From a virus, in the IMG/VR virus record IMGVR_UViG_3300020215_000098, positions 1 through 37,154 of that record: 37,154 nt of DNA; one strand, written 5' to 3'. The translations under genes were made by a program, and so were the position numbers. The notes below the pieces were generated by a model that was given only the letters and a program-made list of their open reading frames with translations, was not told the DNA's origin and did no database searches. This document shows, piece by piece, positions 4,165 to 16,911 of this stretch; position 1 is the first letter of the stretch, and every line of letters starts with the position of its first letter.

Positions 4165-4547
4165 TTCACACCATACCGATTCACGTTGAGTCGCGGCTTG
4201 TAGCGGCAGATAAGACGAATTTCCGTCATTGCCCAATCGCCACAACGAACCGACGGCTTATATTTGATGACAAGATTCTGGAAGGTTCCGATATTGGTAA
4301 ACGTGGTGGCATTGCTAAGTCCAGGACGCAATGTGTAGGCATTGAAGCGGCGCGCCAGATTGACTGTCGAGCCCACATACACCAACACGCCGTTTTCAAT
4401 GAAGCAGTAACACCCTGCGCTTTCTGGCAGTTTGTCGCAGCAATCCTTGAGCGTCTTCCACCGCGCCACTTTTGCCATTACATCCCTTTCCGTCCAGTAA
4501 TCCGGCACAAACTGCGCATCATAAATCTCGTCAAGACTCAGCTTCAC
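4161..4547 (-). CDS. GIY-YIG nuclease
   Basis: The 128-aa protein holds a complete GIY-YIG core: AGCYCFI (residues 44-50), LVYVGSTVNLARRF (about 55-68, catalytic Arg), Glu109 in AMTEIRL, and YKPRLN at the end. Its small size and single domain suggest a free-standing phage nuclease rather than a homing endonuclease with a separate DNA-binding domain, although the first 40 residues might serve that role. The start is GTG at 4547, sharing one base with the upstream TAG stop. It lies between the initiator-like gene and a phage hypothetical gene. Confidence 0.85.
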   Translation of the reverse strand: MKLSLDEIYDAQFVPDYWTERDVMAKVARWKTLKDCCDKLPESAGCYCFIENGVLVYVGSTVNLARRFNAYTLRPGLSNATTFTNIGTFQNLVIKYKPSVRCGDWAMTEIRLICRYKPRLNVNRYGVK

Positions 4548-5557: not shown

Positions 5558-5865
5558 CCCAACACCTCCCGCAACGTGGTCAAGACTGAAAGGGTCCGAA
5601 ACTCGGACGGCGTGCACTTAATCACACGCCAGCCCAAGACAGCAGCCGCATTGAATTTCTCAACGTCCTTCAAGTATCCCGCGCCTCTCGTGTGCCGTCC
5701 TCGCGTCCAGATTCCGCCGTCGATTTCGAGCGCCACTTTCTTTTCAGTCCATGCCCAATCGAAACGCCATTTACGCGACGGGTGAAACTTGAACTCAGCC
5801 ACGGGCACAGGCAATCCAGCCGACGCGCACAGGGATGGAAACATGCTTTCGGAGTTGATGCTCAT
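5554..5865 (-). CDS. PD-(D/E)XK (DUF559/Vsr-like) endonuclease
   Basis: The 103-aa protein carries the small phage endonuclease pattern: KWRFDWAW (Asp36), VALEIDGGIW (Glu47), then RGRHTRGAGYLKDVEKFNAAAVLGWRVI. This is the Vsr/DUF559-like restriction fold that is widespread in phages beside recombination and Holliday-junction genes. It may nick or resolve DNA intermediates. It is coupled to the HNH gene upstream (overlap 5862-5865) and to the phosphatase downstream (GTGA). Length is normal for the family. Confidence 0.85.
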   Translation of the reverse strand: MSINSESMFPSLCASAGLPVPVAEFKFHPSRKWRFDWAWTEKKVALEIDGGIWTRGRHTRGAGYLKDVEKFNAAAVLGWRVIKCTPSEFRTLSVLTTLREVLG

Positions 5866-6392
5866 TTCAGCCCTATCAGCTTGCGTTTTCGAGGATGTCT
5901 ACGATTGCTCGCTTGTTCCTTTGGCGTAGCCCAACGGCAATTGCCAGGCTCATAATTGCCGTTGTTGTTAATACGGTCGAGACTTGTGCCTGCTGGCTTT
6001 TTTCCCATGTCGGCCAGGAAGGTTGCAAATGATTCTCGCCACGCTTTACAGACTGTTATTCCGCGCCCACCGTAAAAGAGATAGCCGTCGTAATTCCTAT
6101 TCTCGCATCTCGCGATCATGGCTCCCCATGAACTATATTCTGGTGTCTTTGATCCTCCGTGTTTTGTACTCAGCGCACGTGCTACGTCGGAATGTAGGCA
6201 GCCACAAGAGCGCGTGCCATTACTCAGTCTCAGTCGATTACCTAGAACATTGACTTGCTTCCCGCATACACACTTGCAGCACCACACGGAGTTCTGCCTT
6301 TTGTCACTTCCAGCATGTCGAATTACTGTTAAACGGCCAAATTGACGGCCAATAAGGTTGTATTTTGGCGCTAACGCTTTATTGATTTTCAT
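5862..6392 (-). CDS. HNH-family endonuclease with N-terminal zinc site
   Basis: The 176-aa product begins with a GRLTVI segment and a zinc-binding stretch (CCKCVCGK ... SCGCLHSD), then a C-terminal module SLDRINNNGNYEPGNCRWAT followed by KEQASNRR. The last part is the HNH-like signature of phage homing-type endonucleases, where D-R-I-x-N-N-G-Y is metal and DNA binding. YGGRGITVCKAW in the middle is also typical of this group. It may be a mobile gene that has settled in the operon, although it keeps ATGA overlaps on both sides, which is unusual for a recent insertion. Confidence 0.85.
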   Translation of the reverse strand: MKINKALAPKYNLIGRQFGRLTVIRHAGSDKRQNSVWCCKCVCGKQVNVLGNRLRLSNGTRSCGCLHSDVARALSTKHGGSKTPEYSSWGAMIARCENRNYDGYLFYGGRGITVCKAWRESFATFLADMGKKPAGTSLDRINNNGNYEPGNCRWATPKEQASNRRHPRKRKLIGLK

Positions 6393-8233: not shown

Positions 8234-8853
8234 TTCTCCGTTAATGCCGCGTCAGATCTCAAATGTGGCAATGCATTGTCGAAACAGGCGTAGAACTCTT
8301 TCAGCGCAACGCCAATCGCCTGTTGAATCTTTTCGTCACGTCGCACCGTCAAAAGCAATGGGGGAAACTTGCGGCAATAACTGACGAACTTCCACCAGGG
8401 AGCGCCCGTTACGAACATGCTGAAATGTACTTGGGCACGATAGGTCGCCGGCAGTTCATTCCGCAGCAAGTACCCGACATGCGTATGCGGTTGCGGACAC
8501 TTAATCTCTAATCCGCCATCGTTGAGCAACCCGTCAGGCGAACACCCCGCCCGTCCGTCGTCCGTCTCAATGAATCCAACACGGCGAACGTCGCAATTGA
8601 ATGTAAATTCGAACCAAGGTAAAGCTTCGTCTTCCCTGATTTCCCCTTGTTCCATGTCGCCCGATTGGAACGTCTGCAACGGATGTCCTAGAACCTTCTC
8701 AGCGAGCTTCTTGTGCAGATAGGTACGGAATGTGTCACCCGTTCGCAATTCAAACTTATCCGTGACGACTTGTCCGAACTCACTGGCAGTGACGCGGCCC
8801 GCCCTGAGTGCCAGCCATTCCCCGTTGCCTTGAGTGCAATTGTGGATTTTCAT
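8230..8853 (-). CDS. YqaJ-like viral recombinase (lambda-type exonuclease)
   Basis: The 207-aa protein has the YqaJ exonuclease layout: an N-terminal GEWLALRAGRVTASEFG segment, then AGCSPDGLL (Asp107), LEIKCPQP (Glu116 and Lys118) and a late Gln in YRAQVHFSMFV. These are the metal-binding residues of the lambda exonuclease fold. It would resect double-strand ends to give 3' single strands for the ERF annealing protein encoded two genes upstream. I take the ATG at 8851-8853, coupled by ATGA to the cupin-like gene. Confidence 0.9.
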   Translation of the reverse strand: MKIHNCTQGNGEWLALRAGRVTASEFGQVVTDKFELRTGDTFRTYLHKKLAEKVLGHPLQTFQSGDMEQGEIREDEALPWFEFTFNCDVRRVGFIETDDGRAGCSPDGLLNDGGLEIKCPQPHTHVGYLLRNELPATYRAQVHFSMFVTGAPWWKFVSYCRKFPPLLLTVRRDEKIQQAIGVALKEFYACFDNALPHLRSDAALTEK

Positions 8854-9311
8854 TCGCCGCAACCCTTCCCAACATTTCCGCTATCTGTTTGGTCCACAAA
8901 CTCTGTCCACGGAACAAAGCCCTTTGGACACCAGAAGCCCCATGTTCGTTTCTTTGCACCAGTAATTACGATTGTCCAGCATGGCCGATTAACTTCGCCG
9001 TCTTTGAACAGCCTTACCCTGTGGCGGTCTGTGGCACGACGGAATGCAATTGACGGCGCACTGCGAACCTTGAAACCTTCGTCGCGAAATTCGATGTAGC
9101 CCCCACGAACCATGATTGAGACAAACCACCACGGATGGTCATGGAGCGCCCTGTCGTCATCGTCGCGCATGAATTTGTGCAGATAGATGTTGAACCACGG
9201 ATTGCGCGGAATCAGAAACCAGCGCAACAAATACGGGTTGTCAGCACCGCCAATGATAAAGTGCGGCTTGCCACTCAATAACCATGAGAACCAACACCAC
9301 AAACGTTTCAT
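8850..9311 (-). CDS. Cupin-like phage protein
   Basis: The 153-aa product contains LHDHPWWFVSIMVRGGYIEF, followed by a FRRATDRHRV segment and a C-terminal WTIVITGAKKRTWGFWCP. This HDHPW...GGY...H pattern is that of a small cupin-fold protein seen in many siphophages; two to three His residues could bind a metal. The activity in phage is not known to me. It shares a base with the ERF gene stop (9311) and lies between the two recombination genes. Confidence 0.75.
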   Translation of the reverse strand: MKRLWCWFSWLLSGKPHFIIGGADNPYLLRWFLIPRNPWFNIYLHKFMRDDDDRALHDHPWWFVSIMVRGGYIEFRDEGFKVRSAPSIAFRRATDRHRVRLFKDGEVNRPCWTIVITGAKKRTWGFWCPKGFVPWTEFVDQTDSGNVGKGCGE

Positions 9312-13090: not shown

Positions 13091-13389
13091 GCTCGCGCCC
13101 TCCATACCTTCGCCCTGCATCCGCTGCTCGTGTTCCGATACTCGCCACTCCATTCAATCCGCGCCGGCAAACCTCTGGAGCCTTGAAGCTCGTTCACCCG
13201 TCCGCAAACTGTCTGGAGCTTGATGCCAAGGCCGTTGGCAATCTCTTCGTTCGTCAGTCCATCAGAGGCCAGAATCAGGTGGTAAATCTGCTCGCGTAAA
13301 CCGCTGGCGTTGGGAGCGATGGCCTTAGCGGCGGCTTCCTGCGTTTCGTTGCCTGGACGATAGGCGGGGATGTCCCAAAGGGTGTTCAC
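13087..13389 (-). CDS. Helix-turn-helix early regulator-like protein (100 aa)
   Basis: The start is GTG at 13387-13389, overlapping the upstream TGA (GTGA). The central segment HLILASDGLTNEEIANGLGI followed by KLQTVCGRVNEL looks like a winged helix-turn-helix: an entry helix, a turn and a recognition helix. The end (GCRAKVWRAR) would form the wing. It may regulate replication or host genes. A longer upstream reading exists but collides with the preceding gene. Confidence 0.65.
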   Translation of the reverse strand: MNTLWDIPAYRPGNETQEAAAKAIAPNASGLREQIYHLILASDGLTNEEIANGLGIKLQTVCGRVNELQGSRGLPARIEWSGEYRNTSSGCRAKVWRARA

Positions 13390-13691
13390 TTGCTCGCCTC
13401 CAGAAACGCCCGCACGTCCGCTGCATCGAACCGCCCGCCGCCGTACTTCTGTTTCAGCTTGCCATTGAACACGGCTTGCAGAACCGAGGCAGGCTTCAAC
13501 CCGAGCACAACCGCCACTTCCGCCGTCCGCATTGGCAGCCCTGCATCGAACTTCGCTTTCGCCATGACGCACAACTTTTCCGCCGCGGCGCTCGCCTTCT
13601 TTTCCTTCAAGAGCGCGTCCAGCTTCGCTTCGATGCGCCGAAGGGTGTCAGTCGGCATTGAGCGGGTTGAGGGTGGGATGGTGGCTCTCAT
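13386..13691 (-). CDS. Helix-turn-helix (excisionase/MerR-like) protein (101 aa)
   Basis: After a helical segment (DTLRRIEAKLDALLKEKK), the product shows MRTAEVAVVLGLKPASVLQAV followed by KYGGGRFDAADVRAFLEAS. This second half is typical of small excisionase-like or DNA-binding domain proteins in which a helix-turn-helix is followed by a wing and RFDxxDVxxFL. Its position near the integrase and repressor makes an excisionase role possible, but it could equally be an early regulator. It is coupled by ATGA upstream and GTGA downstream. Confidence 0.65.
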   Translation of the reverse strand: MRATIPPSTRSMPTDTLRRIEAKLDALLKEKKASAAAEKLCVMAKAKFDAGLPMRTAEVAVVLGLKPASVLQAVFNGKLKQKYGGGRFDAADVRAFLEASK

Positions 13692-14029
13692 TTGTCGAAC
13701 GCCTCCCGCTCTGAGAGATTGGCGTAATAGTCGATTACTTCCGGTTTGCTCGCATCGCGCTCCATCTGTCTGTACTTCGCCTGTCTGTTGCGCTTAACGT
13801 TGCGCTTTTCCCACTTGAGCCACTTCGCAAGCGTCGGCGTGTGCGCTACGTCATGTGCAGTTGCGACGCGGCACATATAGGCCAGTTGTTCGGAGAAAAG
13901 CTGCGTATGCCCCTTTGCACGGAAGTAGTGGATGGCCTCATTGCGCGTGCAGATAGCGCCGTTGCACACAATCGTTTCGTTGCCTACGGACCACTGCTTT
14001 TCAAAGGCCAGACGTTTCGCGCTTTTCAT
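13688..14029 (-). CDS. Hypothetical early protein (113 aa)
   Basis: The protein is basic in the middle and C-terminal half (KWLKWEKRNVKRNRQAKYRQME) and has an N-terminal segment with paired Cys (VCNGAICTRNEAIHYF). It is predicted helical. Both ends overlap neighbours by ATGA. I do not recognise it; nucleic-acid binding is possible from its charge. Confidence 0.6.
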   Translation of the reverse strand: MKSAKRLAFEKQWSVGNETIVCNGAICTRNEAIHYFRAKGHTQLFSEQLAYMCRVATAHDVAHTPTLAKWLKWEKRNVKRNRQAKYRQMERDASKPEVIDYYANLSEREAFDK

Positions 14030-14376
14030 GCCTGCCTCGCCTTCTGCTCCGTCTCGCCGATGATGGGCGCGTGTTCGTAAAGCACTGCTAACTGGCCTTC
14101 GAGTCTGTCAACCTTCGGTTCTTCAGGCTGCGCGTATCGCCAAAGGGGAAGCTCGAAACTGTTGCCCCAACGCCGTCGAAATTCCTTTTGTGTCTTGCAC
14201 CCGTAGAATTTCAGCCATCGCTCTAGCCGCTTCTCTGGAAACCGTTCGGCGTTCTCCACCATCGAAACCATTTCCTGCGACACGCCAATCCACTTAGCGG
14301 CGTACTCTTGATTGCATTCACGCAGAACCCGTCGAGCTTGTGCAAGCGTCTCGATTGGCTCTCTTGGTTTTCGCAT
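14026..14376 (-). CDS. XRE-like helix-turn-helix regulator (116 aa)
   Basis: The product from the ATG at 14376 contains ARRVLRECNQEYAAKWIGVS followed by QEMVSMVENAERFP, fitting the XRE/Cro helix-turn-helix (helices 2 and 3 with the usual Q..A..IGVS). GGGGGG lies eight bases before the ATG. As the second early gene it is a candidate Cro-type regulator of the switch region. Its first 59 bases overlap the upstream antitoxin-like gene in another frame. Confidence 0.7.
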   Translation of the reverse strand: MRKPREPIETLAQARRVLRECNQEYAAKWIGVSQEMVSMVENAERFPEKRLERWLKFYGCKTQKEFRRRWGNSFELPLWRYAQPEEPKVDRLEGQLAVLYEHAPIIGETEQKARQA

Positions 14377-14533
14377 TCTTACTGCCCCCCCGGACAGGTT
14401 CGTCGTCGCACGGAACAATGCGTGCGGCGTTCTTGCCGTAACTTGTGATGAGGAAGGACTCTTTGTTTTTGCGGACGCGACGAATAATGTCGTGAAGCTC
14501 GGTTCGGGCGTCTTTCAGTGGGATTGTTGTCAT
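14318..14533 (-). CDS. Phd/YefM-like antitoxin-fold protein (71 aa)
   Basis: From the ATG at 14531-14533 the product reads MTTIPLKDARTELHDIIRRV, then ESFLITSYGKNAARIVP. This is the Phd/YefM N-terminal DNA-binding fold: a short strand, a helix and the I.....Y.K..A.IVP strand pair. The C-terminus (toxin-binding part) is short and basic. No toxin gene (PIN, Doc, RelE) follows, so it is probably an autoregulator of the early operon. It is the first leftward gene, 55 bases below the promoter -10. The 59-base overlap with the next gene is unusually long here. Confidence 0.7.
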   Translation of the reverse strand: MTTIPLKDARTELHDIIRRVRKNKESFLITSYGKNAARIVPCDDEPVRGGSKNAKTKRANRDACTSSTGSA

Positions 14534-14587
14534 CCGAGGCTGTACTCCAGTGTGCGTTTGTATGAAATATTTAATTCTTATGCTGTA

Positions 14588-14616
14588 ATAATAATACGTT
14601 CGTACAAAAAACGCAA
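14588..14616 (-). promoter_or_regulatory. Probable leftward early promoter
   Basis: On the minus strand TATTAT (14588-14593, five of six to TATAAT) lies 17 bases downstream of TTGCGT (14611-14616, matching TTG only). It faces the Phd-like gene at 14533 and would start the whole early operon. A 10-bp dyad sits in its spacer, where a repressor would block it. The -35 match is weak, so the promoter may need activation or have a strong UP-like A/T context (the surrounding DNA is A/T rich). Confidence 0.5.
14595..14604. promoter_or_regulatory. Candidate operator (dyad in early promoter spacer)
   Basis: TACG-TT-CGTA is a 10-bp dyad with perfect 4-bp arms placed inside the -10/-35 spacer of the early promoter. 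A repressor dimer bound here would block RNA polymerase. It is short, so chance cannot be excluded. Confidence 0.35.
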
Positions 14617-14650
14617 GTGATAAAGTTAGAAACTTGTATTTTTGCAAGTG
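14613..14650. promoter_or_regulatory. Candidate repressor operators (GCAAGTG repeats)
   Basis: GCAAGTG occurs at 14613-14619 and again at 14644-14650, and the inverted half ACTTG at 14632-14636 pairs with CAAGT of the second copy, giving an ACTTG-8-CAAGT dyad. The first copy overlaps the -35 of the early promoter and the second lies at the repressor gene start. Such repeated half sites in a divergent control region are typical of CI/Cro operators. This is inference from position and symmetry. Confidence 0.4.
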
Positions 14651-14668
14651 TTGGTTCATATTGAGGTT

Positions 14669-15301
14669 GTGAGAGAAGATAACCTGCAACAACGAAAAAC
14701 TTATCTGATTGGTTTCAACGAGCGCATGCTCGCGAACCATACGGTTGAGTATATTTCCAAAGCGGCAGACATCTCAAAGAACACTCTTTACAGCTGGCGG
14801 AAGCGTGGGATACCCGACCCGATTGCTATCGAGAAAATCTCGAAGGCGATTAACGTTTCGGACTGCTGGCTAGGATTCGGCCACGGCGCACGTGACCGCG
14901 AAGCATTTAAGAGGGGTGAACAGATAGGACTTGCCCTTGAGCAAGTTGCTCACGAAAAGCGCGAACAGTTCATTACTGGCGTAGCGCACTTATCAGGCGT
15001 CAGTGTGCCCGCTCAATCTTCGCCCGGTCGCGCGCCTTATGAATATTCGCCTGCACTTCCTGAAGTGTCGGAGGTGCAGCGCGTCCTAGCGGATCTGCTA
15101 GAACACGAATCTGTGCTAGCTGTTGGGACGAAGGCCCAGATTTCGGTAAAGAACGCCTCCACGCTGTTAGATCGTCTAGTCGTATCTCTACGGTCCGCAC
15201 TGCAATCGGATTCACATAAGGATTCCGCCGCATCTTCGCCAGCAAAAGCCCTAGCTCACGAGAAACAATCACGGGGTCAAGGCAAACTTGATCTGTCATA
15301 A
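14669..15301 (+). CDS. CI-like phage repressor
   Basis: The N-terminal domain (FNERMLANHTVEYISKAADIS then KNTLYSWRKRGIPDPIAIEKI and NVSDCWLGFG) is the helix-turn-helix of phage CI-type repressors, including the trailing xVSxxWLxxG. The C-terminal part is poorly conserved and shows no Ser/Lys self-cleavage peptidase, so induction may not follow the LexA-like route. The gene is divergent from the early operon. The start is uncertain: GTG at 14669 is used here, with TTG 14651, GTG 14648 and ATG 14726 as options; none has a well-spaced ribosome binding site, so a leaderless message is possible. Confidence 0.75.
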   Translation: MREDNLQQRKTYLIGFNERMLANHTVEYISKAADISKNTLYSWRKRGIPDPIAIEKISKAINVSDCWLGFGHGARDREAFKRGEQIGLALEQVAHEKREQFITGVAHLSGVSVPAQSSPGRAPYEYSPALPEVSEVQRVLADLLEHESVLAVGTKAQISVKNASTLLDRLVVSLRSALQSDSHKDSAASSPAKALAHEKQSRGQGKLDLS

Positions 15302-15383
15302 GAATCGTCTCCAATTAAATAGTCGTGTAAAAAATAGACTCAAGTTCTAGGCAAAGCAAGCCGATAGTGGCGCGGAAATTATT

Positions 15384-16514
15384 ATGGGACTGTATCCCAA
15401 ACCTTGGCAACCAACCGGCTCCGGCTCATACCGCGAAGTCCGCAAAGGCGCGTTTGAACTCTCGTGGCGTCCGTCTGGCAGTCGCGGCCCGAAGCTCCGG
15501 CGGGTTGTCGATTGCACGGCCAAAGAGGCGCGGGCTTTTCTACTTCGTGAGGGTGCAGACAGATCCCGCGCTGGCTTAGGGCTGCCGTCCAACTTGTCTT
15601 GGGATGATGCCATAGCGATGTACAGCGAGCGTCTTGATGCAAAGGGTGTGGTAGCGCGCTACAAGGCGGATGTACTAGAGCGCCTTGAGGACTTGCGCCA
15701 GTTCGCCCCTACACTGCAACACGTGGAACCCCACTCGATTCAAAGCTGGCTGGATGCAATCGCAAAGAACCTCAAGAAAGACAAGCGGGCGGGATGGGCG
15801 CGAACGGCGAACCTGCACCGCTCAATGGTTAGCGGGTTCTTCCGTTACCTCGTGCGAATGCGCAAGCTGCAATACAATCCCGTCTCAGCAACGTTTGAGT
15901 TCCCCGAAACCATCAAGCCGCCGCGCAATGTCTCGCCCCAAGACTACGCTCGCGTGTGGGAAATCAGCGAACCGTCTGTGCGGGATTGCATGGACTTCTC
16001 GCTCATCACCGCGTGCCGATTCTCTGAGATGGCCGAAGCGAAACACGCCGACATCGTTAATGGCGTCTGGACAATCAAGGATAGGAAGGGTCATGATTAC
16101 CTCAAGCTGGCGCTTCCGCCGGAAATCCTTGCCATTGTCCAGCGCCAGCCGAAGACAGAGGACGGGCTTATCTTCCATAAATGGGTGCCGCGCAAACAAG
16201 GCAGCGATGCTGGCCACGGGTTCAATCCTGGTGAGCCGATGGATAGAACATGGTGGAGAGAAGTTATCGCCCAACGATGCAACCAGATACAGGGTCTGGT
16301 GCGTTTCAAGCCGCACGACTTGCGCCACGCCGCTGCTACGTGGGCGCGTGCGGCAGGACTTAGCCCGTGGTTTATCCAGAATCTACTCGGGCACAGCACC
16401 ATCAAGACGACGGAAATTTACGCGGCCAAAGATTTAAGTGGTGCGGAAAAGGTCAGTTTAGCATTAATGAAAATTCGCGACGAAGCCATAAGTAAGCTTA
16501 AACAAACGAGTTAA
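15384..16514 (+). CDS. int: Tyrosine recombinase (phage integrase)
   Basis: The 376-aa product has a full tyrosine recombinase catalytic domain: Arg212 in ITACRFSEMAEAK, Lys235 in DRKGH, HDLRH with His311 and Arg314, LLGHST with His337, and the nucleophile Tyr346 in TTEIYAAKD. The N-terminal part (residues 70-170) is the core-binding SAM-like domain. It integrates the phage at the tRNA-Leu site lying 6 bp after its stop codon. An 82-bp gap after the repressor may hold its own promoter; none is clear. The start ATG has only a weak GCGGAAAT site. Confidence 0.95.
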   Translation: MGLYPKPWQPTGSGSYREVRKGAFELSWRPSGSRGPKLRRVVDCTAKEARAFLLREGADRSRAGLGLPSNLSWDDAIAMYSERLDAKGVVARYKADVLERLEDLRQFAPTLQHVEPHSIQSWLDAIAKNLKKDKRAGWARTANLHRSMVSGFFRYLVRMRKLQYNPVSATFEFPETIKPPRNVSPQDYARVWEISEPSVRDCMDFSLITACRFSEMAEAKHADIVNGVWTIKDRKGHDYLKLALPPEILAIVQRQPKTEDGLIFHKWVPRKQGSDAGHGFNPGEPMDRTWWREVIAQRCNQIQGLVRFKPHDLRHAAATWARAAGLSPWFIQNLLGHSTIKTTEIYAAKDLSGAEKVSLALMKIRDEAISKLKQTS

Positions 16515-16520
16515 CCACAT

Positions 16521-16559
16521 GCGGACGTGGCGGAACTGGCAGACGCGCCAGACTTAGGA
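16521..16559 (+). other. attP: attP core: 5' half of tRNA-Leu(UAG)
   Basis: These 39 bases read as the start of a bacterial tRNA-Leu gene: acceptor GCGGACG, TG, D arm GCG..GGC..GCGC, then CCAGA and the anticodon loop CTTAGGA with anticodon TAG at 16555-16557. After 16559 the expected stem TCTGG is replaced by unrelated sequence (AGAGG), and no 3' half with GTTCGA is found nearby. It is therefore an attachment-site copy, not a working tRNA. Phage genes on both sides show the window is the unintegrated form. Confidence 0.85.
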
Positions 16560-16574
16560 AGAGGCTATAAAGTA

Positions 16575-16647
16575 TCTACTGTTATCGACTTAGCTCTAAT
16601 TAATAGGCGCGGCAAGGATTTAGCAATATCAGTAGAGACAAGTAGAG
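16575..16647. promoter_or_regulatory. Candidate integrase arm-binding sites
   Basis: AGTAGAG occurs at 16631-16637 and 16641-16647, exactly 10 bp apart (one helical turn), and the inverted copy TCTACTG is at 16575-16581, pairing with CAGTAGA at 16630-16636. All lie just downstream of the attP core, where tyrosine integrases bind arm sites. No function is shown beyond position and repetition. Confidence 0.4.
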
Positions 16648-16710
16648 TGTAATAAATAGCGCGTTTTCTGAAAATGTGGTCGGAAAATGGTGCGGGTTTG
16701 GGGAGGGGAT

Positions 16711-16911
16711 ATGAAGAACAAATCATTCAACATCGACCGTTTTATTATCGCCGCAATCGTTGGTGCTGTCGGATACTTTCTCGTTGGCGGGATTGTTGGG
16801 GCGGCGTCGCCAGATAAGAAGAACATAGCGCTCATCATTCAAATCGGCGTGACGGTATTACTTGCACTGGCAACATACGGCTATCTTGTCGCCGCGACGC
16901 CGAAGGAATAA
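16711..16911 (+). CDS. Small two-span membrane protein (66 aa)
   Basis: From the ATG at 16711, with GGGGAGGGG directly upstream, the product has two hydrophobic segments: FIIAAIVGAVGYFLVGGIVG and IALIIQIGVTVLLALATYGYLV, with a short charged loop (SPDKKN) between. It is an inner membrane protein beside attP and transcribed with the lysogeny genes, so it could be expressed from the prophage. Phages often place host-altering genes here (inference). It ends 12 bp from the convergent tail gene; no terminator hairpin is seen between them. Confidence 0.7.
   Translation: MKNKSFNIDRFIIAAIVGAVGYFLVGGIVGAASPDKKNIALIIQIGVTVLLALATYGYLVAATPKE

Follow-up and report, generated by a model that had tools for sequence, protein, structure and literature searches.

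Textbooks explain the use of tRNA genes by integrases by the fact that the host retains its tRNA promoter, a rule that is broken by elements carrying the 5′ half of the target gene. A review of archaeal integration describes this five-prime class as seldom seen in bacteria (PMC8371274), and the 3919 islands catalogued by Islander comprised 3760 with three-prime fragments and only 159 with five-prime fragments (PMC4383910). Here we describe a tRNA-Leu(UAG) 5′ half that lies directly behind an integrase gene (int) in a 37,154-base virus record (IMG/VR record IMGVR_UViG_3300020215_000098, analyzed at its full length and hereafter called the window) and is predicted to be the core of the phage attachment site (attP). 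In T7-like cyanophages, a 39-base-pair (bp) "first half of tRNA-Leu" is found downstream of int, and integration has been proven by polymerase chain reaction and by deletion of int and attP, yet phages with this layout form no stable lysogens (PMC8776855). In the plasmid pTN3 of Thermococcus nautili, a 41-bp tRNA-Leu 5′ half serves as the core for recombination, which leaves the rebuilt tRNA "separated from its original promoter" (PMC5495485); this consequence of five-prime integration is therefore already in print for an archaeal element (PMC8371274, PMC5495485). Actinobacteriophages with tRNA-dependent lysogeny integrate in a tRNA gene, after which the lysogen depends on phage-supplied tRNA expression (PMC10865867).

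The half occupied positions 16,521 to 16,559 of the window on the plus strand (GCGGACGTGGCGGAACTGGCAGACGCGCCAGACTTAGGA) and comprised the acceptor 5′ strand, the D arm, the anticodon 5′ stem, and the whole anticodon loop. A degenerate pattern for tRNA-Leu(UAG) 5′ halves (up to 3 mismatches allowed) had a single match in the window, free of mismatches, and 0 matches across 100 dinucleotide-preserving shuffles of it. The match ended after CTTAGGA (16,553 to 16,559), the last base of the 7-nucleotide (nt) anticodon loop, and the following AGAGG is unable to pair with CCAGA. When positions 16,400 to 16,559 were fused to a 3′ half taken from a real tRNA-Leu(UAG), the product was called as tRNA-Leu(tag) with every stem paired, and ARAGORN found no complete tRNA gene in the window, which may be incomplete. 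Upstream, int (15,384 to 16,514, plus strand) encoded a tyrosine recombinase of 376 amino acids (PF00589, E = 2.9e-16; phrog_1, E = 1.1e-45; PDB matches to XerA-like enzymes and lambda Int) in which the catalytic motif positions R212, H311/R314, H337, and Y346 were all present. Its TAA stop codon ended at 16,514, and only the spacer CCACAT (16,515 to 16,520, plus strand) separated it from the half, the shortest of 55 measured cases with int upstream. A first-pass annotation, made from the letters alone, had described the 39 bases as the start of a tRNA-Leu gene through the anticodon loop, 6 bp past the integrase stop; the perfect pattern match and its boundary confirmed both the position and the strand. 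As homology stops at the last anticodon-loop base, and the loop is where tyrosine integrases usually have their 7-bp overlap region (PMC8371274), position and sequence together predict that 16,521 to 16,559 is the attP core, with CTTAGGA, a boundary that recurred in other 5′-half attPs, as its strand-exchange region. The sequence, boundary, orientation, and gene order of this site, and its recurrence elsewhere, are direct observations.

As in S-TIP37, P-SSP7, and their relatives, the window carried a 39-bp tRNA-Leu first half directly downstream of int and a regulator gene immediately upstream, and we confirmed the cyanophage layout in the records of S-TIP37, S-CBP1, and P-SSP7 (loci L061, L062, and L063). 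The details differed, however: cyanophage halves belong to tRNA-Leu(CAG) or (UAA) rather than (UAG), the gap between int and half is 82 to 84 nt in S-TIP37 and S-CBP1 compared to 6 in the window, and the cyanophage spacer often has a promoter-like element where the window had none. The regulator is of the winged-helix, MarR-like type in cyanophages and of the HTH_3 type in the window, and the gene after attP is a T7-like RNA polymerase in the former and a hydrophobic open reading frame (ORF) of 74 amino acids without a family match in the latter. Local alignments of window Int with the Int proteins of S-TIP37, S-CBP1, and P-SSP7, which share 40 to 45% among themselves, were all weak or short, and window Int was unrelated to these proteins beyond the domain. 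In those three records (L061, 2041 to 2421; L062, 2044 to 2157; L063, approximately 5900 to 6039) the polymerase was the next annotated gene past attP, so that integration would place it behind the host tRNA-Leu promoter.

In pTN3, as proposed for the window, the rebuilt tRNA leaves its original promoter and sits behind the integrase promoter, but pTN3 is archaeal and its attachment site is inside an integrase gene that is split on integration (the suicidal type), whereas int in the window was intact with its stop preceding the half. Five-prime Islander elements share with the window a tyrosine integrase, a tRNA gene target, and an element-carried 5′ fragment; they are, however, integrated islands in sequenced genomes, while the window is a free viral contig. 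Actinobacteriophage lysogens resemble the window phage, as proposed here, in relying on phage-supplied tRNA expression, although in those phages the host tRNA is not rebuilt and a whole replacement tRNA is encoded, whereas the window encodes no tRNA and integration would rebuild that of the host. The window phage is an uncommon arrangement already known in kind from cyanophages and an archaeal plasmid, with an unusually tight junction between int and tRNA.

We consider it probable, taking the explanation as a whole, that the half is an attP core, that Int recombines in the anticodon loop of a host tRNA-Leu(UAG) gene, and that the rebuilt tRNA is read from a regulator-int transcript. The tyrosine integrase of this temperate-type phage would act on a 5′ half brought by the phage and co-directional with int, and integration would create a complete tRNA-Leu from the phage 5′ half and the host 3′ half, beginning 6 nt past the int stop codon. 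Because exchange anywhere within the 39-bp identity yields the same product, the rebuilt tRNA would come to lie behind phage DNA, and the host promoter would stay on the orphan 5′ half, reading into the phage right arm. As no promoter was recognizable just upstream of the half, the rebuilt tRNA would most likely form the 3′ end of the regulator-int transcript, to be released by RNase P and 3′ nucleases. For this phage we infer recombination, host identity, co-transcription, and processing from the arrangement.

Two degenerate scans of viral contigs, together with phage records and the window, yielded 76 tRNA-Leu sites (window included) with a 5′ half and without a complete tRNA. At 54 of these a same-strand integrase ended upstream of the half, at a distance of no more than 400 nt, most of them being related cyanophage-type sequences, so 54 is not the number of independent origins; at four sites the integrase converged from the downstream side. 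Gaps between int and half spanned 6 to 352 nt (6 in the window, 18 in L045, 25 in L147, 69 to 139, and up to approximately 310 to 350), and 53 of the 76 sites had zero further stem bases past the loop, with one to five at the remainder. Window Int shared at most 25% over long stretches with other integrases of the class, among which L004 and L045 share approximately 53%, L010, L014, L037, and L048 44 to 53%, and the cyanophage enzymes 40 to 45%. These data show the five-prime class to be widespread among tRNA-Leu-targeting phages and to have arisen in several integrase lineages. A putative DNA-binding gene lay directly upstream of int in other members as well, encoding a MarR-like winged helix (S-TIP37, L162) or an HTH_17 protein (L010, L067); the corresponding proteins of L004 and L045 looked like ribbon-helix-helix proteins, without significant Pfam support. 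Within one integrase family (44 to 53% identity), int was upstream of the half in L010 and downstream and convergent in L014, L015, L037, and L048. Two related integrase genes (55% identical) flanked the tRNA-Leu 5′ half near position 2629 of L004 (reverse strand). L173 carried identical tRNA-Leu(CAA) 5′ halves at 39 to 77 and 1131 to 1169, 1.09 kb apart and with differing downstream sequence, possibly tandem attachment sites or a small nested element.

L037 and L019, metagenomic contigs of related hosts, provided a natural junction of the class. L019 had an uninterrupted tRNA-Leu(UAG) followed by a terminator-like hairpin, and its positions 4245 to 3727 matched positions 1 to 520 of L037 at 95.4% over 520 nt, made up of 480 nt ahead of the tRNA and its initial 40 nt. 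Past the shared 520 nt, L037 was phage sequence with an integrase pointing toward the junction. In this pair the host promoter has thus stayed on an orphan 5′ half, in agreement with the geometry, which also forces a rebuilt tRNA to sit behind phage DNA. Positions 1 to 134 of L029 had the same tRNA-Leu(UAG) locus and an intact promoter; the sequence after it was different and presumably that of a phage, and L029 is presumably an ordinary 3′-type provirus.

Integration could also occur with little effect, if other host tRNAs read the same codons and the promoter swap were inconsequential. Several isoacceptors read leucine codons, and trnS-leu2, where ICEBs1 integrates in Bacillus subtilis, is a non-essential gene (PMC3715440). 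We regard this as a less likely outcome; against it, the tRNA-Leu(UAG) gene was single-copy (at up to 2 mismatches) in the three genomes of the small Bacteroidota family with the closest match to the half (38 of 39).

Alternatively, attP may be as proposed, with the rebuilt tRNA having its own promoter in the 3′ end of int, so that supply would be constitutive and independent of regulator and int expression. Other 5′-half attPs do have promoter-like elements facing the half. After removal of spacers above 75% identity, 31 of 53 non-redundant spacers had the extended −10 motif TGnTAnnnT within 100 nt of the half, versus 2 in reverse orientation, and it was present within 70 nt in 22 spacers versus 1.7 ± 1.4 in shuffles, nearly all being cyanophage-type spacers to whose counts shared ancestry contributes. 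The element could also serve the downstream RNA polymerase gene. Its distances from the tRNA start clustered near 34, 54, 74, and 84 nt, in steps of approximately 20 nt (e.g., L066, L068, L080, L082, L107). The P-SSP7 spacer contained TTGTTA-N16-TATAAT. In L010, L014, L015, and L022, TTGCNN-N16-CTWRKG lay 10 to 11 nt ahead of the half; this pattern, chosen after the sequences had been seen, otherwise had a frequency of approximately five per million bases across the loci examined. Candidate host promoters (L012, L019) resembled the latter elements, but at 17 to 18 nt from the tRNA. In the window, however, the spacer is only 6 nt long, the promoter score of the last 85 nt before the half was below that of 98% of shuffles, TGnTAnnnT was absent from 15,300 to 16,560, and the only sigma-70-like site within int (16,068 to 16,097) was at chance level, making a private promoter unlikely here. 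The class as a whole suggests two coping routes, with a promoter carried in the spacer or the tRNA hooked to the int transcript. The first-pass annotation had favored phage transcription of the rebuilt tRNA, a view strengthened by the promoter-poor 85 nt, by a CI-like helix-turn-helix gene upstream, and by the lack of any plus-strand terminator detected between 13,600 and 17,000 in a crude scan.

It is about equally unlikely that the phage integrates without forming stable lysogens, which would leave the fate of the rebuilt tRNA with little physiological weight. The closest functional precedent behaves this way, the T7-like cyanophages integrating in lytic infection without lysogeny (PMC8776855). 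Unlike the cyanophages, the window had two divergent HTH_3 genes beside int, a possible excisionase gene, and Erf/YqaJ recombination genes, the usual temperate layout. The candidate lysogeny repressor was an HTH_3 (Cro/CI-type) regulator at 14,642 to 15,301 (plus strand; PF01381, 23.4 bits; phrog_3037 transcriptional repressor, E = 1.8e-4). Its gene has the same orientation as int and precedes it by 82 nt, and translation may in fact begin a few codons further downstream. The second HTH_3 protein (14,029 to 14,418, minus strand; PF01381, 24.3 bits) was divergent from it, in a Cro-like position, and the possible excisionase was an HTH_17 protein (13,386 to 13,691, minus strand; phrog_66 excisionase, E = 0.0014; PF12728, E = 1.6e-4, below the curated cut-off). 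An ORF with a Phd/YefM antitoxin domain (14,321 to 14,740, minus strand; PF02604, 33.5 bits) overlapped, on the opposite strand, the 5′ end of the gene for the candidate repressor.

It is highly improbable that the half is no attachment site but the remnant of a tRNA gene once carried by the phage: phages often carry tRNA genes, and L043 has one full and one broken copy, but the half in the window is intact, lies 6 nt behind int, and ends exactly at the anticodon loop, a boundary that recurs behind int in unrelated phages and belongs to a proven attP in cyanophages, and the decayed-tRNA and phage-tRNA-gene readings were both rejected on this recurrence.

Several points, the cyanophage precedent among them, weigh against integration with transcription from the regulator and int. 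The first-pass annotation had proposed alignment to host tRNA-Leu genes; the perfect 5′ half stood, while an identical host gene was not found in approximately 400 Bacteroidota genomes, the group to which host tRNA sampling was confined, the closest being 38 of 39 in the small family mentioned above. The exact 39-mer was likewise absent from viral contigs and had no full-length identical match among the phage and plasmid matches listed. For this phage, searches gave neither a lysogen nor an attB, attL, or attR site, and the integrase had no relative close enough to supply one, with none in viral contigs or phages, weak partial matches in plasmids, and two weak loci in genome contigs. TerL had no relatives in viral contigs and only weak phage matches, and the portal protein a single 26% match, neither naming a host, and a survey of gene starts (Shine-Dalgarno sequences) did not decide the host. 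The PF01381 score of the candidate repressor was barely above the cut-off of 23.0 bits, promoter prediction used a sigma-70-type consensus only, which may not be that of the host, and the terminator scan was crude.

On the other side of the half, the presumed attP right arm (16,560 to 16,660) contained AGTAGA repeats at 16,575 (minus), 16,631 (plus), and 16,641 (plus), and AGTAGAG occurred in the entire window only at the latter two positions. These are possible arm-type Int sites, a suggestive pattern only, as a chance 7-mer pair inside 100 nt is not rare. The predicted RNA fold of 16,560 to 16,700 was ordinary (z = 0.11). The small hydrophobic ORF (16,687 to 16,911, plus strand), which had no family match in profile searches, would come to lie behind the host tRNA promoter once integration had cut the latter off from its gene. 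Elsewhere in the window, an ORF at 8,853 to 9,311 (minus strand), within the recombination/replication gene block, strongly matched PHROG 4786 (labelled cysteine dioxygenase), and an HNH endonuclease with a CapR-like N-terminal region was encoded at 5,865 to 6,392 (minus strand). The contig started with a tandem 343-bp duplication (1 to 643; 300 nt identical, with two copies of a 103-amino-acid ORF) and a third, partial copy of 41 nt at 687, reflecting either gene duplication or an assembly effect.

New in this analysis are the 76-site census, the L037/L019 junction, the promoter-like elements facing the tRNA half in many attPs of the class (the window being without one), and the regulator-int layout. 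Hooking the tRNA to the int transcript would make a housekeeping tRNA part of the phage lysogeny operon, and the link between tRNA supply and lysogeny that the first-pass annotation suggested is a plausible conjecture for this phage. We put forward more tentatively, as a possibility short of an expectation, that the regulator, int, and the rebuilt tRNA-Leu form one transcription unit, with the tRNA-Leu(UAG) of the lysogen an output of the prophage repressor promoter. If so, tRNA-Leu(UAG) would be expressed as long as the prophage stayed silent, would fall upon repressor loss at induction, and would regain its own promoter only after precise excision, and prophage decay at the tRNA end would be selected against.
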